A DNA stretch of 50,919 nucleotides from a virus: positions 1 through 50,919 of IMG/VR virus record IMGVR_UViG_3300025674_009487; one strand, 5' to 3'. Both the position numbers and the translations under genes were made by a program. This document shows, piece after piece, positions 1,088-31,853 of this stretch; positions within the stretch are counted from its first letter, which is position 1; each line of letters opens with the position of its first letter. The notes under the pieces are model-generated. The model did no database searches, was not told where the DNA came from, and saw only the letters and a list, made by a program, of their open reading frames with translations.

Positions 1088-1101
1088 CGTCGTTATAGAT
1101 T
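1071..1101. repeat. Dispersed motif copy 1 (ACAGAAG..AACGTCGT)
   Basis: This short segment spans both convergent stop codons. It reads ACAGAAGTAACGTCGT and contains the small palindrome TAACG-T-CGTTA. The core ACAGAA(G/A)-N-AACGTCGT also occurs near 5003-5026, 41752-41780 and 44293-44320. Its function is unknown. Confidence 0.35.
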
Positions 1102-1971
1102 GTATTTCTTAAAATTTTCCCAAAACCAAATTACAAAATCTCTTAAAGGTACCAAACATGCATTAATCCATTCGAATGGAATTAAAAACCAGTAATCAAT
1201 TCCCCAAGAAGCCTTTGCCCAAGGATCAACCAACAAAGGCCAGAGAAAATAAATCCAAATTACTACTGCTGCAAATCCAATGCGCCAAAATATATATTCT
1301 ACTTTTTCTTTAAGTGATTTATATTTTAGGCGCATTTTTATTTTCTTCGCACCACCCAAACGTTTTACTTTCTCACCATCAGGAGGAGGTTGTAATTGTG
1401 CTTCAGTTAAGCCAATAGCATAAACTTGCTCAGGATTTGATACACCTTTGAACTGGTATAAACCAACAAGAACAATCATTGTTTGCTTTGGAATATGTCG
1501 ATGATGTGATAAACGTTTTTTGAATTGTAAATGAGCTGAATATGATAACAAAATCTGATCAGGCCCGCAAATGCTCATAATACGTGCACAAACATTTTTA
1601 CCAATGCCTTCAATGTTCATTCGCTTTGCACCACCTTTTACCAGCTTTTGGTTTGTTTTTGTGATAATCATATCATCCCAATGAATACCCAGCCTGCTTC
1701 TGAAAGGGAATTTCTTTTGTCGCAGCTTCTTTTTATATGCAAATCCAAAAGCTATAGCATCACCAACAGATGCAAAATAACAAAGCATACCATCAGATGC
1801 ATCAATAAACTGCCCACCATATTCATAGATTAACGACATGGTTATTTTATCATGTATTGAAAACCATTGAGCAGCAACAGACGCTCCGTGTTTTTGCACG
1901 AACTTTGTGCTACCAATAATGTCAGTCATTACAATTGCAATGCTGGCATTTTCCATATTTTCAGGCAACAT
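1093..1971 (-). CDS. Membrane-anchored class III nucleotidyl cyclase
   Basis: A 292-residue protein with a class III cyclase homology domain at about residues 8-190 and a hydrophobic C-terminus. The two metal-binding aspartates are visible as D17 (TDIIGST) and D60 (ASDGMLCYF), at the usual spacing; the transition-state pair is N126 and R130 (KNVCAR). The segment LYQFKGVSNPEQVYAIG matches the typical end of the domain. The canonical adenine-reading Lys and Asp appear replaced (about I56 and N119), so the product nucleotide is uncertain. Residues about 229-247 and 257-285 are hydrophobic, placing the enzyme at the membrane with an inverted layout (domain first, anchor last). GGGAG 7 nt upstream supports the start; the preceding gene ends 2 nt before it. 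Enzyme class is strong, biological role unknown. Confidence 0.85.
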   Translation of the reverse strand: MLPENMENASIAIVMTDIIGSTKFVQKHGASVAAQWFSIHDKITMSLIYEYGGQFIDASDGMLCYFASVGDAIAFGFAYKKKLRQKKFPFRSRLGIHWDDMIITKTNQKLVKGGAKRMNIEGIGKNVCARIMSICGPDQILLSYSAHLQFKKRLSHHRHIPKQTMIVLVGLYQFKGVSNPEQVYAIGLTEAQLQPPPDGEKVKRLGGAKKIKMRLKYKSLKEKVEYIFWRIGFAAVVIWIYFLWPLLVDPWAKASWGIDYWFLIPFEWINACLVPLRDFVIWFWENFKKYNL

Positions 1972-1973
1972 GA

Positions 1974-2252
1974 TTATCTCCCGTCAAAAAATTCTGCTAT
2001 TATTTCAGAACACTCCATTTCTAAAAATTTTTCAGGTGTTTCTTCTTTACAATACTCATCCCAATTAGGAAAGTAAATTACATATTCATCAGTTTTTAAT
2101 GTACATTCTGAAATGTGTTGGTGTGCTCGCTCACAAGGAGTATACACAGGTTGAACCATGTTATCTCTGTTGCAACTTTGCATCATAATAGATATGTTTA
2201 CACCAATCGCAAATAAAGATAAAGCAGCAACAATCCTCGTAATTAAATTCAT
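1974..2252 (-). CDS. Small membrane or exported Cys-containing protein
   Basis: A 92-residue protein beginning with a hydrophobic segment (about residues 5-24) followed by a polar, cysteine-containing, acidic tail with five Cys in total. The hydrophobic start may be a signal peptide or a single membrane anchor; MMQSC at residues 23-27 is a poor lipobox, so a lipoprotein is possible but not supported. Its ATG overlaps the upstream stop as ATGA, and the cyclase starts 2 nt after its own stop, so it is translationally coupled on both sides. The family is not recognised. Disulfide-linked periplasmic placement would fit the Cys content, but that is inference. Confidence 0.6.
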   Translation of the reverse strand: MNLITRIVAALSLFAIGVNISIMMQSCNRDNMVQPVYTPCERAHQHISECTLKTDEYVIYFPNWDEYCKEETPEKFLEMECSEIIAEFFDGR

Positions 2253-2476
2253 TTGCTTTCCTTCTCTTGTTTGTTAATACACACAGGCCCTTTGCACTTG
2301 GTAGCTTCTCTACCACAATTACATATTTGTATTGTGCATATGCAATCAACTTTTCCACAAAGCGCACATACTGTAGGATCATCCCAGTTTATAAACTCAG
2401 GATTCCAGCTTTCTAATATTCTCGAAGCATCATCTGAAGGAGGTATGATTTTTTGAACATTGTTTTTCTTCTTCAC
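2249..2476 (-). CDS. Cys-rich small protein, probable zinc-binding
   Basis: A 75-residue protein with eight cysteines packed into residues 37-66, in a CxxC-x4-CxC-x4-CxC pattern followed by two more Cys. Closely spaced Cys pairs of this kind usually bind zinc. The start is a GTG at 2476: AAGGAGG sits 7 nt upstream of it, while a nearby ATG at 2481 is only 2 nt from that site and runs into TGA after two codons. It overlaps the next gene by 4 nt (ATGA). No family is recognised. Confidence 0.65.
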   Translation of the reverse strand: MKKKNNVQKIIPPSDDASRILESWNPEFINWDDPTVCALCGKVDCICTIQICNCGREATKCKGPVCINKQEKESK

Positions 2477-2497
2477 TTCATAACCTCCTTAGGTTTG

Positions 2498-2800
2498 TTA
2501 ATCTTTTTTCTTAAGCTCTTCTATTTCTTTTTTTAATTTCTGATCTTCACGATCAAATATTTCAACAGCTGAATGTAGGTATTTATCAAGGCTCGATTGT
2601 CCGATAACGTATCCTATTGTTAATGCTGAAGATGATACAACCATTGCAAGTAGTATCGACATTTCATACAAATCAATTGTTCCAATGTGTGTGATAAGCC
2701 ATCCCATCAATCCTTTTGTTGAAAGTTCTGCTAATAAATAAGCTAAAAACTTTTTGCTTTGCATAGGCTTACTGCTATCAGCTACTGGTTTTTTATCCAT
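2498..2800 (-). CDS. Small membrane protein, possible holin
   Basis: A 100-residue protein with a hydrophobic stretch around residues 45-68 (EMSILLAMVVSSSALTIGYV), a weaker one at about 20-40, and a charged lysine/glutamate-rich C-terminus that could form a coiled coil. Size, the central membrane segment and the charged tail resemble phage holins, and the position after the tail genes is a common site for lysis functions. No endolysin is visible beside it, so the holin call is tentative. Its Shine-Dalgarno overlaps the stop of the preceding structural gene (TAGGAG). Confidence 0.5.
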   Translation of the reverse strand: MDKKPVADSSKPMQSKKFLAYLLAELSTKGLMGWLITHIGTIDLYEMSILLAMVVSSSALTIGYVIGQSSLDKYLHSAVEIFDREDQKLKKEIEELKKKD

Positions 2801-2810
2801 AACTTTTCTC

Positions 2811-4919
2811 CTATTCAGTTTCTTCCAAAATAAAGTTTGTTTCTAAATCAACTTCAACCAATGATGGATTTGAGTTAGGCAATGCATGTGTTCCAAAATT
2901 ACCACCTCTTCTTCTCTTTGTAATCATACCAATCACACCTGAAGATAAGAAATCATTTAAACCTAAATCAGCTGATACACGACGTGATCCTTCTGCATCA
3001 GTACTATCAAGGAATATATCAAAATCAATAAAGTTATTATCGATAAATGATAACAGTACATCAAGAACGCTATCATCAATTTCAAGAGTAAATCTTCCAT
3101 CCCAATCTTGCTTCCAGAACCAAGGAAGGATTTCGCAGAAATATAATTTACCTGTTTCTAATCTTGCTGTTCTTGCAACGCCAGCTTCTACAGATGTTTG
3201 TGTTCTTAGATCTTGACGTGCAATAATATTTCCATCATCATCTATAGGAAATCCATCTTCGTTTAAGTTGTGATACTCATATAAACCACGCCAATATGCA
3301 GTATCATTTGGCTCAAGAGTAAATCCTTGTTTTACTGAGCCATTTGTATAAAATATACTGTCTCTTTCAAGATCAAATATAGGTGTTTCTTGAATAACAA
3401 TAGCTCTTCTTTCATGTGATCGATTCAATGTTCGGTTTCTTAAGTTTTGTTTAAGATTATCCTGAATATCAAATGGTAATGCATCATATATCGCATCATA
3501 ATCACCAACAGGTGCAGTTATAATAGCACCTTGATCATTTAATGTTGCTAAAAATCTAATGTTTAGAGATCTGAATAGATGAAAAAAGTAATTAAACAAT
3601 ACAGGTTGCGTATTAAATGCACCTTGATAAACTCTTCTGAATGCTGCATACCAGTTTGTATCACTTATTTCAAATCCTGGGCGAGGCAAATTAAAGTTTT
3701 GGCGTTTATAAATGTTTTCTATTTCACTCCACTCACGATGATTATAATTTACTTTTGTTCCAACTGGAAGGCGTTTCTTTATCTGCCCTGTTGTATACTC
3801 GTTTAGTGTAAGCAATCGTGATGTTTTAACTTCATAATCATATACATCGCCACCAATATTAACTTGGCCAAATGAAGGCATGCCTTTTGTGCTTTCAACT
3901 TCAACTATATAATTAAGCGGCCCAGGATTATCAACCGGAAACAGCTCTTCAGTTGTTACAGTATAATCGCTATCGATCATATAATTTGTTGCTTCTGATA
4001 TAGCAGATGTTATTACAGCAGCATTACTTTCAGTTCCTTTAATATAAGGTACTGGTGGAGTAAAGTTATCAGATCTTTCACCTGCATTCCAAAACGAAGG
4101 CAAAGCAGCACGAGTGCCCATTGTTCTATCGTTTCTATTTCTATGAACAACAAGCAAGGCATTGTTTATATAAGCCATATTCCATATGCCTTCACCGTTT
4201 CTATACTGAATATTGATTTGATATCTACCTTGAGGCATCGGATTTGTGCAGAAATGTAATTTGTTTTGTGCCAAGTTTGAATATAAAACTATTCCTTGTT
4301 GTGCAACACCTGAAAATGTTGGGTATCTAATATTATCTGCTTCGTTTTGCAATGTAACAATAAACGGGCCCATTGGGCCAACAGCATTCGGGTCGTCAAA
4401 TATACGTTTTAATTGAATATTTATCGTTACTACATCGCCACCATTATCAGCAATATCTAATTGCCCTTTACTGAGCAAACCAAACGACGCGCCATCAAAA
4501 TTCCCAGGAGGATCTGGCTCACCCCACCCTCGAGGAAGTGCATCCCAATCAATATCATTAAAAATATCAGGGTCAACTCCCGGTTCATTTTGAAGTTCTT
4601 CAATTAGGTTTTCTGAATAATCAATACTGATTCCACCAAAGCCAAGATCAGGAATTGCTCTTACAAATCCATCGTTATCAGCTTCTGCATCAGCTCCTGC
4701 TCTAATTAAAGCATCAGGGCTAAGTTCAGGAAGTGTAATTTCTCCAAAAGGCACGGGAACTCTTGAGCCAAATCCTAAAAATTCATTTGTAAAAGGCACA
4801 GTTGCTTCTGAAAAATCAGGAAAATTTGCATCAAAGCCAAGTTCTATCGCAAGAGGATCCACCTCAATTGCATACTCAGCTGGTGATACTCGATAATAGT
4901 TTTTAAACGTTGATGCCAT
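2811..4919 (-). CDS. Probable tail/baseplate-associated structural protein
   Basis: A 702-residue protein, last of the large virion genes in the direction of transcription. It is soluble-looking, rich in Asn, Asp, Pro and aromatic residues, with no signal peptide or membrane segment. It contains no motif I can assign. Its size and position directly after the fibre and baseplate genes suggest a baseplate, fibre-attachment or receptor-binding component. AAGGAGA lies before the ATG. A 106-nt gap with hairpins separates it from the preceding fibre gene. Confidence 0.6.
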   Translation of the reverse strand: MASTFKNYYRVSPAEYAIEVDPLAIELGFDANFPDFSEATVPFTNEFLGFGSRVPVPFGEITLPELSPDALIRAGADAEADNDGFVRAIPDLGFGGISIDYSENLIEELQNEPGVDPDIFNDIDWDALPRGWGEPDPPGNFDGASFGLLSKGQLDIADNGGDVVTINIQLKRIFDDPNAVGPMGPFIVTLQNEADNIRYPTFSGVAQQGIVLYSNLAQNKLHFCTNPMPQGRYQINIQYRNGEGIWNMAYINNALLVVHRNRNDRTMGTRAALPSFWNAGERSDNFTPPVPYIKGTESNAAVITSAISEATNYMIDSDYTVTTEELFPVDNPGPLNYIVEVESTKGMPSFGQVNIGGDVYDYEVKTSRLLTLNEYTTGQIKKRLPVGTKVNYNHREWSEIENIYKRQNFNLPRPGFEISDTNWYAAFRRVYQGAFNTQPVLFNYFFHLFRSLNIRFLATLNDQGAIITAPVGDYDAIYDALPFDIQDNLKQNLRNRTLNRSHERRAIVIQETPIFDLERDSIFYTNGSVKQGFTLEPNDTAYWRGLYEYHNLNEDGFPIDDDGNIIARQDLRTQTSVEAGVARTARLETGKLYFCEILPWFWKQDWDGRFTLEIDDSVLDVLLSFIDNNFIDFDIFLDSTDAEGSRRVSADLGLNDFLSSGVIGMITKRRRGGNFGTHALPNSNPSLVEVDLETNFILEETE

Positions 4920-28581: not shown

Positions 28582-29487
28582 TTATTTTTTTTGATCTTCT
28601 TTTTTAAATCTTTCAACCATCATTGCTGCATAATCCCTGCCTGCATTACCCCCCCAAATTTCCCACGCAGTATAACCTGCATCTGCCCAAGGAAAATCAG
28701 AATGTTTTTCAGCATATTCCTCATTTCCTTTGTGCCTGCTGAAGAATGAATGCATACGTTTGATTGTATCTTCTGAAAGCGCTTCACCATTTGCCAATTG
28801 ACGTGCTCTCGTCCAACCAACTTGTGTTCCACCTTTTACTTTATCACCATGTTCTTCACGAGCTTTGATCGCACGTTTAGCACGCTCCTGAACTGCTTTA
28901 GGAGGAACATATGTTTTACTTTTTGCAAGCATTTCCAAAACATCTTCGTGTTTTGCTGTAATCATTTTCATGATTGATTTCTTGTGTTTATCCCATAAAT
29001 GTGCATCAGCTTTTCTTGCACCGCTTTTTGAATCAAATAAAAACGCATAGACACGCGCACGTGCCCAGGATTGAGGTGTTTGCCCAGGGCGATGGCCGCT
29101 TGTTGCTGCTGCTTTTAATCCCTTATCATATACTTCTTCAATAATACTTCTTGATACACCTGATACTTTACTTGCAGCACGAATAAATTCTTTTTTGCCT
29201 GGCTTCTTAATTTCTTCACGAACAGCATCAGCTTTCTTTGATTTCGTTCCCTTGTTTTGTTTCTTTGATTTATCTAAATCATAATCATCACCAGGGAGTG
29301 GGCCCTCTATAATTTCCCCAGTTTCTTTTAAATGAAGTTGCCTTCTTTCAATCTCTTTTTCTCTTTTGAGTGCAATATCTTTAGGTAATCCTTCGAAGTA
29401 CTGGGCTGGGTGTTCTTTGCCATCTTTATCATGATCTACTTTTGATTTGATTAAATCGTAAGCTTTCGAAAGTGCTTCACTAAACAT
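28582..29487 (-). CDS. Conserved phage head-region protein with ARQLA..WGGxAGR C-terminal motif
   Basis: A 301-residue basic protein. The start is the ATG at 29487 (AAGGAAG upstream); it lies 8 nt inside the end of the endonuclease gene. A middle segment (HRPGQTPQSWARARVYAFL, then GARKADAHLWDKHKK, residues about 155-195) and a C-terminal segment (ARQLANGEALSEDTIKRMHS, then GYTAWEIWGGNAGRDYA, about 225-290) recall short domains that occur in phage proteins near portal and protease genes; I know them as conserved but without settled function. A DNA-binding or head-assembly role is possible. Confidence 0.6.
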   Translation of the reverse strand: MFSEALSKAYDLIKSKVDHDKDGKEHPAQYFEGLPKDIALKREKEIERRQLHLKETGEIIEGPLPGDDYDLDKSKKQNKGTKSKKADAVREEIKKPGKKEFIRAASKVSGVSRSIIEEVYDKGLKAAATSGHRPGQTPQSWARARVYAFLFDSKSGARKADAHLWDKHKKSIMKMITAKHEDVLEMLAKSKTYVPPKAVQERAKRAIKAREEHGDKVKGGTQVGWTRARQLANGEALSEDTIKRMHSFFSRHKGNEEYAEKHSDFPWADAGYTAWEIWGGNAGRDYAAMMVERFKKEDQKK

Positions 29488-30052
29488 TGCTCTTCCTTTT
29501 CTTGCAGTTGTTTTGATGCCATCGTTTCCAGTTACCTTTAGATGTTTCTTTACCGCAATGGCTACATTTATATTTAACACCATTCTTAAATCTATCAGCA
29601 AGCGATTTGCCTTCTGATATCATTTTTTGATGTTGATCTAATGCATGTTCAGATAATGATTTTCTCAATTCAGCATTGTTTTCAAACTTTTTGATTGCTG
29701 CTTTACTCATGTTTCTTTTAGCTTCTTCAGTATGCTTAAATCCTATTAATTTGCTTGGTTGAGAATTGATATGATGAAACCCACCTTTTCCGCCTATTGT
29801 TATGTTATAACTCTGAGGATTGTTTACCATTTTTTGATTTACTACTACAGCTTCATATTCATATGCTTCTTCTTCAGAATCAAACCAAAGCAAGATTTCT
29901 TTGCTGAAATTATCTATTCCGTACTTTTTGTATGCTTTTTTTAAAGCTACACCGCTGCCCATATAAGTTTCTGTATTAGAGCCATCATGCACGCCATAAT
30001 AGAATTTTCCATTTACGTTATTAGTTATTTTGTAAATGTGTGGCTTATTCAC
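29480..30052 (-). CDS. Free-standing GIY-YIG homing endonuclease
   Basis: A 190-residue nuclease of the GIY-YIG class: the core begins HIYKITNNVNGKFYYGVH, followed by MGSGVALKKAYKKYGIDNFS and an EYEAVVV segment carrying the expected glutamate. A DNA-binding part follows with a NUMOD3-like stretch (GFKHTEEAKRNMSKAA) and a C-terminal zinc finger (CSHCGKETSKGNWKRWHQNN then C). A GTG at 30052 is preferred as start because GAGG sits 6 nt before it; another GTG at 30064 lacks one. It overlaps the portal stop by 8 nt and the next gene by 8 nt, so it sits flush between two virion genes. Confidence 0.85.
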   Translation of the reverse strand: MNKPHIYKITNNVNGKFYYGVHDGSNTETYMGSGVALKKAYKKYGIDNFSKEILLWFDSEEEAYEYEAVVVNQKMVNNPQSYNITIGGKGGFHHINSQPSKLIGFKHTEEAKRNMSKAAIKKFENNAELRKSLSEHALDQHQKMISEGKSLADRFKNGVKYKCSHCGKETSKGNWKRWHQNNCKKRKSNV

Positions 30053-31853
30053 TATCTTCCTCACTTATTTTTGTTTCATCATATGCTTTTTGTAATTCAT
30101 CTTGTATTTCAGTTTCAAATGATTTACCAATTGCATGTGTTAAGTATGAAGGATCATCAGAAGTTCCCATTGATGTTGGCGCGTCTGGTTTATCGTCATC
30201 ATCTTGTTGGCTGCCACTTCTTGATTGTTTCTTTGGCTTCTTTACATTTTCTTCTTTTAAACGAGCAAGTGCAATCTTCTTATCATCTGTTTGAGGCCTT
30301 GTTGATGTATCCTCTTTTATTTGATTGCCAGCAGAATCCATTATATCCACACCACCTGCACCATATCTTTCAGCAACTTCCAAACCTTCTCTATTGATTG
30401 CTGTTGATTTGAGTGATGCATAGTGAATACCAATAATATCACCATCTGCAAGAGGAGGTAAATCATGATAATGACGAATTTCATTAATCGTCATATAACT
30501 CATTTTGTGGTGCTCAATTTTGATTTTATCAATCGCTGAAATAGAATCCATTCCTGTAAATTGGAATACATACTTTGGGTTTATTTGTTTAACAATATAT
30601 TTGTTTATCCACACCTCAATTGATCTAACAAGTGGGCGTAATCCTTTCTCACGTCCTAAAAGAACACGAGCAAATGGATCTTGTGTAAATAAAGTATTCT
30701 TAATACGTTCAACCGTAAATTGGAAACCTATTTCTGCAGGATCTAACTGATAAACACCACAGATAACTTTAATTAAATAGTGCAGCCATTCCTGATATTC
30801 CATTTCAGAGTTTGATGAACCTAATTGAACTGATTGAATTTGTTCATCGTTATCAGGGTCGAGCTGAATAAGTGGTGTACGTTTTGCATTGTTTACACCA
30901 GTTAACATCTGGTAAAACTCTCTTCTAAACGCACGGAATAACTTGGGGTTCATTTTTGATTTAACTGCGATAATTCCTGATGTTGATATACCATTTGTGA
31001 AGTTTGCTGTATTGTAAGCTTCAGCATTAAATATGTTTTGAAGTGATTCATATATTTCTTCAAGCTCTGGGAAACCATATCCCATAACTTCAATATCAGA
31101 TCTTGGCCTACGAACACCAAAACATAAATCTTCTTGATTGTAATTTGCAACAATTTTATTATCAATAATCTGAACGTAATGTGTTCCATTAGGATCACGA
31201 CGTCCTGTTTGTAATTCTTTCTCAGTTAAACCTGCTCTTCTTATTGTTGATGCATCAACAGGTGTAAATGCAACAATCTTTCCTTTTTTATTACGAATGA
31301 TTTCGAAATTACATTGATCATATACTAAACTATCACGAACAATTTGACGCATGAAATGTTCAAACGTCATTTCCATATTTTCTTGTTCACTTCCACAGTT
31401 CGACATGAATGATTCTAATTCACGCATTTCTTCGTATTGTTCAGGTGTAGGAGATTCGCTGGGATCAGCAAGATAAATCCTAAATCCTAATCCATCTTCA
31501 TCCGCAAGCGAAGCAAATTCAGCCATCTGATTTACACGTGTTTGAATAATTGCTGCTATTATAGGATGCGATGCTAAAGCTCTCAATGTATGATAATTAA
31601 ATTTTCTTTTTCCAACTGTTGCATCGCTAAAAAAATAACCTCGCCCTGAGCCATCAGAAGCGAAGCTTGTTTGTGCTGCATCACGTGGATTGAAATCATA
31701 CGTCATACCTTGTGCTTTTAAGATGTCGTCCTGAAGCTCATTGATTATCGTGCTATCCTCAAATCTTTTTTGTAGAGCTTCTTCCATAGCAACTTCTTCG
31801 AGAACCTCGTCATATGTTTTATTTAAACCAAATAATTTATTAATTAAACTCAT
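30045..31853 (-). CDS. Portal protein
   Basis: A 602-residue protein with features of dodecameric portals: N-terminal region with HTLRALASHPIIAAIIQTRV (about residues 88-107), a beta-rich wing (PVDASTIRR, YVQIIDNKIVANYNQEDLCF), and a long conserved helix-rich part (YEWLHYLIKVICGVYQLDPAEIGFQF-type segment at about 345-372, here YQEWLHYLIKVICGVYQLDP). The C-terminus is disordered and charged (KKQSRSGSQQDDDDKPDAPT). It forms the DNA entry/exit ring at one capsid vertex. GGAGAG precedes the ATG. Confidence 0.88.
   Translation of the reverse strand: MSLINKLFGLNKTYDEVLEEVAMEEALQKRFEDSTIINELQDDILKAQGMTYDFNPRDAAQTSFASDGSGRGYFFSDATVGKRKFNYHTLRALASHPIIAAIIQTRVNQMAEFASLADEDGLGFRIYLADPSESPTPEQYEEMRELESFMSNCGSEQENMEMTFEHFMRQIVRDSLVYDQCNFEIIRNKKGKIVAFTPVDASTIRRAGLTEKELQTGRRDPNGTHYVQIIDNKIVANYNQEDLCFGVRRPRSDIEVMGYGFPELEEIYESLQNIFNAEAYNTANFTNGISTSGIIAVKSKMNPKLFRAFRREFYQMLTGVNNAKRTPLIQLDPDNDEQIQSVQLGSSNSEMEYQEWLHYLIKVICGVYQLDPAEIGFQFTVERIKNTLFTQDPFARVLLGREKGLRPLVRSIEVWINKYIVKQINPKYVFQFTGMDSISAIDKIKIEHHKMSYMTINEIRHYHDLPPLADGDIIGIHYASLKSTAINREGLEVAERYGAGGVDIMDSAGNQIKEDTSTRPQTDDKKIALARLKEENVKKPKKQSRSGSQQDDDDKPDAPTSMGTSDDPSYLTHAIGKSFETEIQDELQKAYDETKISEEDSE

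Follow-up and report, generated by a model that had tools for sequence, protein, structure and literature searches.

The window analysed here is the whole IMG/VR record IMGVR_UViG_3300025674_009487, a stretch of 50,919 bases from an uncultured virus. Its minus strand carries a contractile-tail structural set, with genes for a portal, head protease, major head protein, tail sheath and baseplate; a homing-endonuclease-like gene (29480-30064, minus strand; phrog_314, E = 1.9e-43) adjoins the portal gene. The tail run ends with a gene for a 702-aa protein (2811-4919, minus strand), after which four genes follow on the same strand in the order 2498-2800, 2249-2476, 1974-2252 and 1093-1971. They encode a 100-aa membrane protein with two hydrophobic segments and a charged C-terminal tail (c0), a 75-aa Cys-rich protein starting from GTG (c3), a 92-aa lipoprotein-like protein with a conserved-Cys motif, and a predicted 292-aa divergent class III nucleotidyl cyclase. 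A purine-rich, ribosome-site-like stretch lies upstream of each of the four. The c3 gene overlaps the lipoprotein-like gene, its stop codon overlapping the ATG of the latter, and at most 3 bases separate the lipoprotein-like gene from that of the cyclase. On the plus strand, a methyltransferase-like gene (35-1087; Pfam Methyltransf_23, E = 9.2e-7, above the cut-off) runs from the contig end, which is base 1 of the window, convergent to the cyclase gene, and occupies the place that another gene, c2, holds in relatives.

Profiles built without the window recovered the cyclase (3e-127), c0 (1.2e-35), c3 (3.9e-11) and the lipoprotein-like protein (6.4e-10) in it, and all four belong to families that recur around the cyclase in other uncultured phages. 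An earlier note on this DNA had placed four genes after the tail genes as a cassette and proposed a neighbourhood search in other phages. The four genes and their recurrence in relatives stood, and the boundaries did not, because the core consists of the cyclase and c2, which lies outside the window, and c0 can lie elsewhere. The product of the third gene, described there as a membrane or exported protein, is instead short and lipoprotein-like and contains conserved cysteines.

The cyclase (1093-1971, minus strand) is composed of a catalytic domain at about residues 6-187, a basic linker and a C-terminal membrane anchor. It matched NCBIfam TIGR04510 (E = 1.6e-31, 109.6 bits, residues 12-204), NCBIfam LipJ (E = 1.8e-7) and the PADLOC PycC profile (E = 3.1e-5), and its best match among PDB sequences was Rv1900c (E = 7e-6). 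Searches with Pfam Guanylate_cyc (PF00211), the family suggested in the earlier note, and with PHROGs profiles gave no match for the cyclase, and we call the domain divergent for this reason; the PF00211 cut-off is a detection criterion, and other profiles and the fold do match. The AlphaFold model of the cyclase, built with 22 relatives, had a pLDDT of 83. Its best solved folds were the CHD of Rv1900c (E about 2e-13, TM-score up to 0.90 on the target), Ma1120 and CyaB. Taken together, the TIGR04510 match, the Rv1900c match among PDB sequences and the likeness of the model to the Rv1900c CHD indicate that the cyclase call is not due to chance. Among the profiles, TIGR04510, a bacterial putative peptide modification system cyclase, matched the catalytic domain best; its cut-off is 400 bits, far above the score of the phage protein, the match covers positions 7-204 of an 814-position model, and the phage protein contains a cyclase domain followed by a membrane anchor only.

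Residue conservation was counted in 79 distinct phage cyclases, of which 75 to 78 were aligned at each position. The first metal-binding Asp, D17 (codon 1921-1923, minus strand; motif MTDIIGST), was Asp in 75/75 aligned relatives, and the second, D60 (1792-1794, minus strand; motif IDASDG), in 76/76, as was the nearby D57. The transition-state Asn and Arg lie in the motif GKNVCARI (N126 to R130, 1582-1596, minus strand); R130 was kept in all 78 aligned cyclases and N126 in 75 of 78, with Ala replacing it in the other three. K116 and K125 were also kept across the aligned phage cyclases. Behind the catalytic domain, residues 231-249 (1225-1281, minus strand) form a predicted membrane anchor with a Kyte-Doolittle mean of 2.01 over 19 residues, and the position of this segment was the same in most relatives. 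By the positive-inside rule, a basic linker followed by a hydrophobic segment would place the catalytic domain in the cytosol. The earlier note had described both the occurrence, among the genes of a phage, of a cyclase whose metal and transition-state residues are intact and the order of catalytic domain first and anchor last, and both were borne out. As to what would have spoken against its reading, namely the absence of a class III match, or that of the cassette from all related phages combined with the lack of a nucleotide product, matches to TIGR04510 and Rv1900c were found, as were the cassette families in related phages. The C-terminal part of the cyclases showed at least two unrelated-looking anchor types after the well-conserved catalytic domain (for example, in locus L012 compared with the window), which suggests that anchors have been exchanged. 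Pairwise dN/dS values of the cyclase were 0.05-0.24; purifying selection on the gene in the phages is strong. Judged by its fold, its metal-binding Asp residues and its transition-state residues, the product of 1093-1971 is a class III cyclase with putative catalytic activity.

Relatives of the cyclase came from viral contigs. No match was found in 50,697 phage records to the window cyclase, to a second member of the family (E up to 10), to c0, or to c2 from two lineages. One distant phage-record match of a cyclase from the 50-55% GC phages described below, MT838110, was rejected, as it lies in a GC-rich, bacterial-chromosome-like stretch and is fused to an ATPase-like region. Single-sequence pattern searches of viral and cellular genomes gave no cyclase relative, and cellular genomes scanned with alignment-based cyclase patterns likewise gave none. 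In IMG/VR, the alignment-based queries yielded 26 loci, with contigs of 95, 211 and 239 kb among the carriers. The closest IMG/VR phage by head protein (G001, 89% identity) carries a cyclase 60% identical to that of the window, in the same place after a tail gene product 64% identical to the 702-aa protein. In this phage (locus L009), a 224-aa exported protein with DxDxDG-type, calcium-binding-like repeats is found in place of the lipoprotein-like gene. The jumbo phage contig G021 has 239,550 bases, with a direct terminal repeat of 141 bases, a feature expected for a complete circular assembly. It has 29% GC and genes resembling PurA, IMP dehydrogenase, GroEL and three long sheath-like proteins, and the best identity of its terminase to phage records was 38.6%. 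Overall, the carriers are numerous; they are uncultured, water-borne phages, most of them very large.

When neighbouring genes were clustered, all of the other loci obtained with the cyclase query (26/26) proved to have c2 downstream of the cyclase. When viral contigs were queried with c2, 297 relatives were obtained and the best 80 were analysed; a cyclase lay within 4 kb in 79 of these best 80 of 297, and the 80th (L099) is on the contig of L039, with the cyclase 4.8 kb away, giving 80/80. As these loci include repeat assemblies of one phage, repeats were removed, after which c2 was present in the flank of 76/78 cyclase loci, the other two (L150 and L161) being on contigs with c2 further out. 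In 114 of 121 pairs, c2 followed the cyclase on the same strand, often overlapping it by 4-20 bases. The window contig ends before the c2 position, and c2 is assumed to lie beyond its end. The core unit is the cyclase plus c2, and among the phage loci found, with the c2 query limited to its best 80 of 297, the linkage is exclusive.

The c2 protein has about 157 aa and is modelled as two transmembrane helices followed by a long helix (residues 74-126). In 45 diverse sequences, 33 positions were invariant, and c2 was more conserved than the cyclase in most comparisons across genome contexts. Its best profile scores were with two-transmembrane effector families and stayed below the cut-offs: SLATT_fungal in 12/19 members (best E = 0.0054), and RTasSLATT (E = 3.6e-4) and PycTM (E = 0.012) in one member each of the 19. 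The unrelated membrane family AbrB also scored (E = 9.7e-5), so this similarity is a lead only and may reflect hydrophobic composition. A fold search with the c2 model returned nothing significant (best E = 6).

The other neighbours were less tightly bound to the pair. The c0 gene (2498-2800, minus strand in the window) was near the cyclase in 27/27 loci from the cyclase search and was divergent in 18 of them. Querying with c0 gave 73 loci, 29 of them without a cyclase nearby; among the contigs behind these 29, all six of at least 195 kb carried the cyclase elsewhere, and those lacking it were at most 149 kb. In some phages, the cyclase, c2 and c0 follow one another on one strand (L031:5619-6345; L088; L183), which suggests that the trio is kept together through rearrangements. 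The c3 and lipoprotein-like genes were beside the cyclase in subsets of loci, the lipoprotein-like family being directly upstream of it in 12/78 non-redundant loci. The c3 protein (2249-2476, minus strand) has 7 invariant Cys in 14 distinct cyclase-adjoining relatives and is likely zinc-binding.

The module was found in at least three genome contexts. In context A (n = 20), which includes the window, it follows the tail genes. In context B (n = 56), that of jumbo phages, it is transcribed divergently from c0 and helicase genes, and lysozyme-like genes follow it. In context C (n = 28), in phages of 50-55% GC, terminase and portal genes flank the pair and ThyX is nearby; 45 further loci were left unassigned. 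A ThyX-like gene was near the pair in 26/28 context C loci (e.g., L133:2374-3057) and in several unassigned loci. The window phage and the jumbo phage G021 have only the cyclase (60% identity) and c0 (41%) in common at E < 1e-3. In the cyclase tree, contexts A and B were intermixed, A needing four changes and B six, of which the supported branches force at least two and six, respectively. The pair is present in phages of 29% to 55% GC. The module appears mobile and has spread across unrelated phages.

What the module does can be proposed from these features. Our prediction, held with a confidence just short of even, is of a module that moves between phages, with a cyclase that produces a cyclic mononucleotide and with c2 as the membrane partner dedicated to it, most likely the effector. 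Anchored in the inner membrane at its C-terminal end, the cyclase would expose its catalytic domain to the cytosol, dimerise and make the nucleotide during infection. The long, very conserved helix of c2, presumably cytosolic, together with its two transmembrane helices, could answer to the nucleotide or to the cyclase, and c2 would then most likely act as the effector on the inner membrane. No cNMP-binding domain was found in 20 phage records of this group (a weak match in G021, E = 0.025, contained an internal stop and was taken as noise), so c2 or a host protein would have to read the signal. Phages may use the module to schedule or force a late event at the membrane, lysis for example, or to block a competing phage. 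Within the short flanks covered, endolysin genes were near the module in 13/20 context A and 16/56 context B loci, which favours a late membrane event. An endolysin does not adjoin the module in every lineage: with short flanks of 4 kb, none was found in the 28 context C loci, so a role in lysis would not be general.

An unlikely alternative is that the phage reprograms its host, the cyclase raising cAMP or cGMP for host receptors and c2 being merely an anchor or regulator. The lack of a phage-encoded cNMP receptor domain in the 20 records is in line with this, as are the nearest folds, the mycobacterial adenylyl cyclases Rv1900c (LipJ) and Ma1120, which have the fold and the positions of the metal Asp, Asn and Arg residues in common with the phage cyclase. 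They are about 20% identical to it, Rv1900c has an N-terminal hydrolase domain instead of a C-terminal anchor, and the base-selecting Lys is replaced in the phage protein. In the HMM alignment, the purine-selecting Lys of Ma1120 corresponds to the invariant D57 (76/76), with a one-residue gap nearby that makes the register somewhat doubtful, and the second purine determinant is Glu, Asn, Ser or Ala. The Lys/Asp or Glu/Cys pair of purine (ATP or GTP) cyclases was thus not found in the aligned phage cyclases, which speaks against this alternative. The occurrence of the pair from 29% to 55% GC, presumably in different hosts, also fits a self-contained effect better than a dependence on host receptors.

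We consider it quite improbable that the pair is a phage-against-phage defence, a form of superinfection exclusion that kills or depolarises the cell upon entry of a second phage. The layout of Pycsar, a synthase with a small transmembrane protein (PMC11224242), is the model for this explanation, and the PycC profile match and the movement of the module between unrelated phages, typical of conflict genes, speak for it. The earlier note had also drawn the comparison with Pycsar, and it holds for the logic only, since PycC plus PycTM and the present pair both combine a class III cyclase with a small transmembrane protein. The base-selecting residues, in contrast, match neither the purine cyclases nor the PycC sets. 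These sets are Y50/D94/R97 (Bc), F60/K104/F109 (An) and F100/R142/Q144 (Ea), with the aromatic residue two positions before the first Asp (PMC11224242); the corresponding phage position 15 was Leu in 70/75 and Phe in 2/75 aligned cyclases, and the PycC residues were absent in this alignment. With D57 at the Lys position and Leu at the PycC aromatic position, no substrate can be predicted from sequence. Pycsar sits in bacterial defence loci, whereas the present module is in phage genomes and its cyclase is itself membrane-anchored; where Pycsar has a PycTM or PycTIR effector as neighbour, relatives of the window have the two-transmembrane c2, and PycTM scored with only one of 19 c2 members. Moreover, the pair was present in 10/10 c0-bearing contigs of at least 195 kb examined, which looks core-like and unlike a variable defence gene. 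By the tests run, the module appears Pycsar-like in logic and a non-member.

A narrow lysis cassette, with c0 and c2 as holin/antiholin or spanin-like proteins, the lipoprotein as outer-membrane spanin subunit and the cyclase as a bystander, has in our view a small chance of being right. Phage holins such as phrog_9987 and phrog_5871 are likewise small two-transmembrane proteins near endolysins, PHROG holins weakly matched c0 (best E = 0.004, 7/20 members) and c2 (E = 0.022, 4/19 members), and contexts A and B have endolysins close to the module. These scores are marginal and insignificant after many tests, context C has no nearby endolysin, and c0 in large genomes is often away from the module with no endolysin marker near. 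We demoted this explanation because it is the cyclase, rather than the endolysin, that c2 tracks. Finally, a decoy signal, a phage nucleotide that would occupy but not activate host immune receptors of the Pycsar, CBASS or CARF type, is very improbable, for although PMC12657230 and PMC12657218 describe inhibitory nucleotide signals in bacterial immunity, it leaves the exclusive c2 linkage and the membrane anchor unexplained.

Phage proteins with an annotated cyclase domain are present in BFVD, so the presence of a cyclase in a phage is not by itself new. Two of them from uncultured Caudovirales, A0A6J5KRX6 and A0A6J5RWB7, have the class III fold of the phage cyclase with 10-16% identity in structural alignment, and one has a long N-terminal sensor region; we know of no c2 paired with either. 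What appears to be new is a class III cyclase family in a phage module of Pycsar-like layout that fails the PycC residue test. In the open-access full-text literature, queried partly in narrow terms, we found no paper on this cyclase family or the cyclase-c2 pair.

In phage biology, cyclic nucleotides are known chiefly as alarm signals of the bacterium, which phages destroy. The relevant passages of a jumbo-phage survey treat them as host signals to counter and describe no such cyclase (PMC7824862). A conserved phage cyclase tied to one partner points in the opposite direction, to a signal made by phages. The fuller form of our preferred reading is a phage-own second-messenger circuit, passed between unrelated phages, in which a membrane cyclase would make a cyclic mononucleotide of a non-standard kind and a membrane effector dedicated to it would read this signal, so as to control a late event at the membrane, for instance lysis or the exclusion of rivals; we think it less likely than not and hold it with considerable doubt. 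The association of cyclase and c2 suggests that, during infection, some phages maintain chemical signalling of their own.
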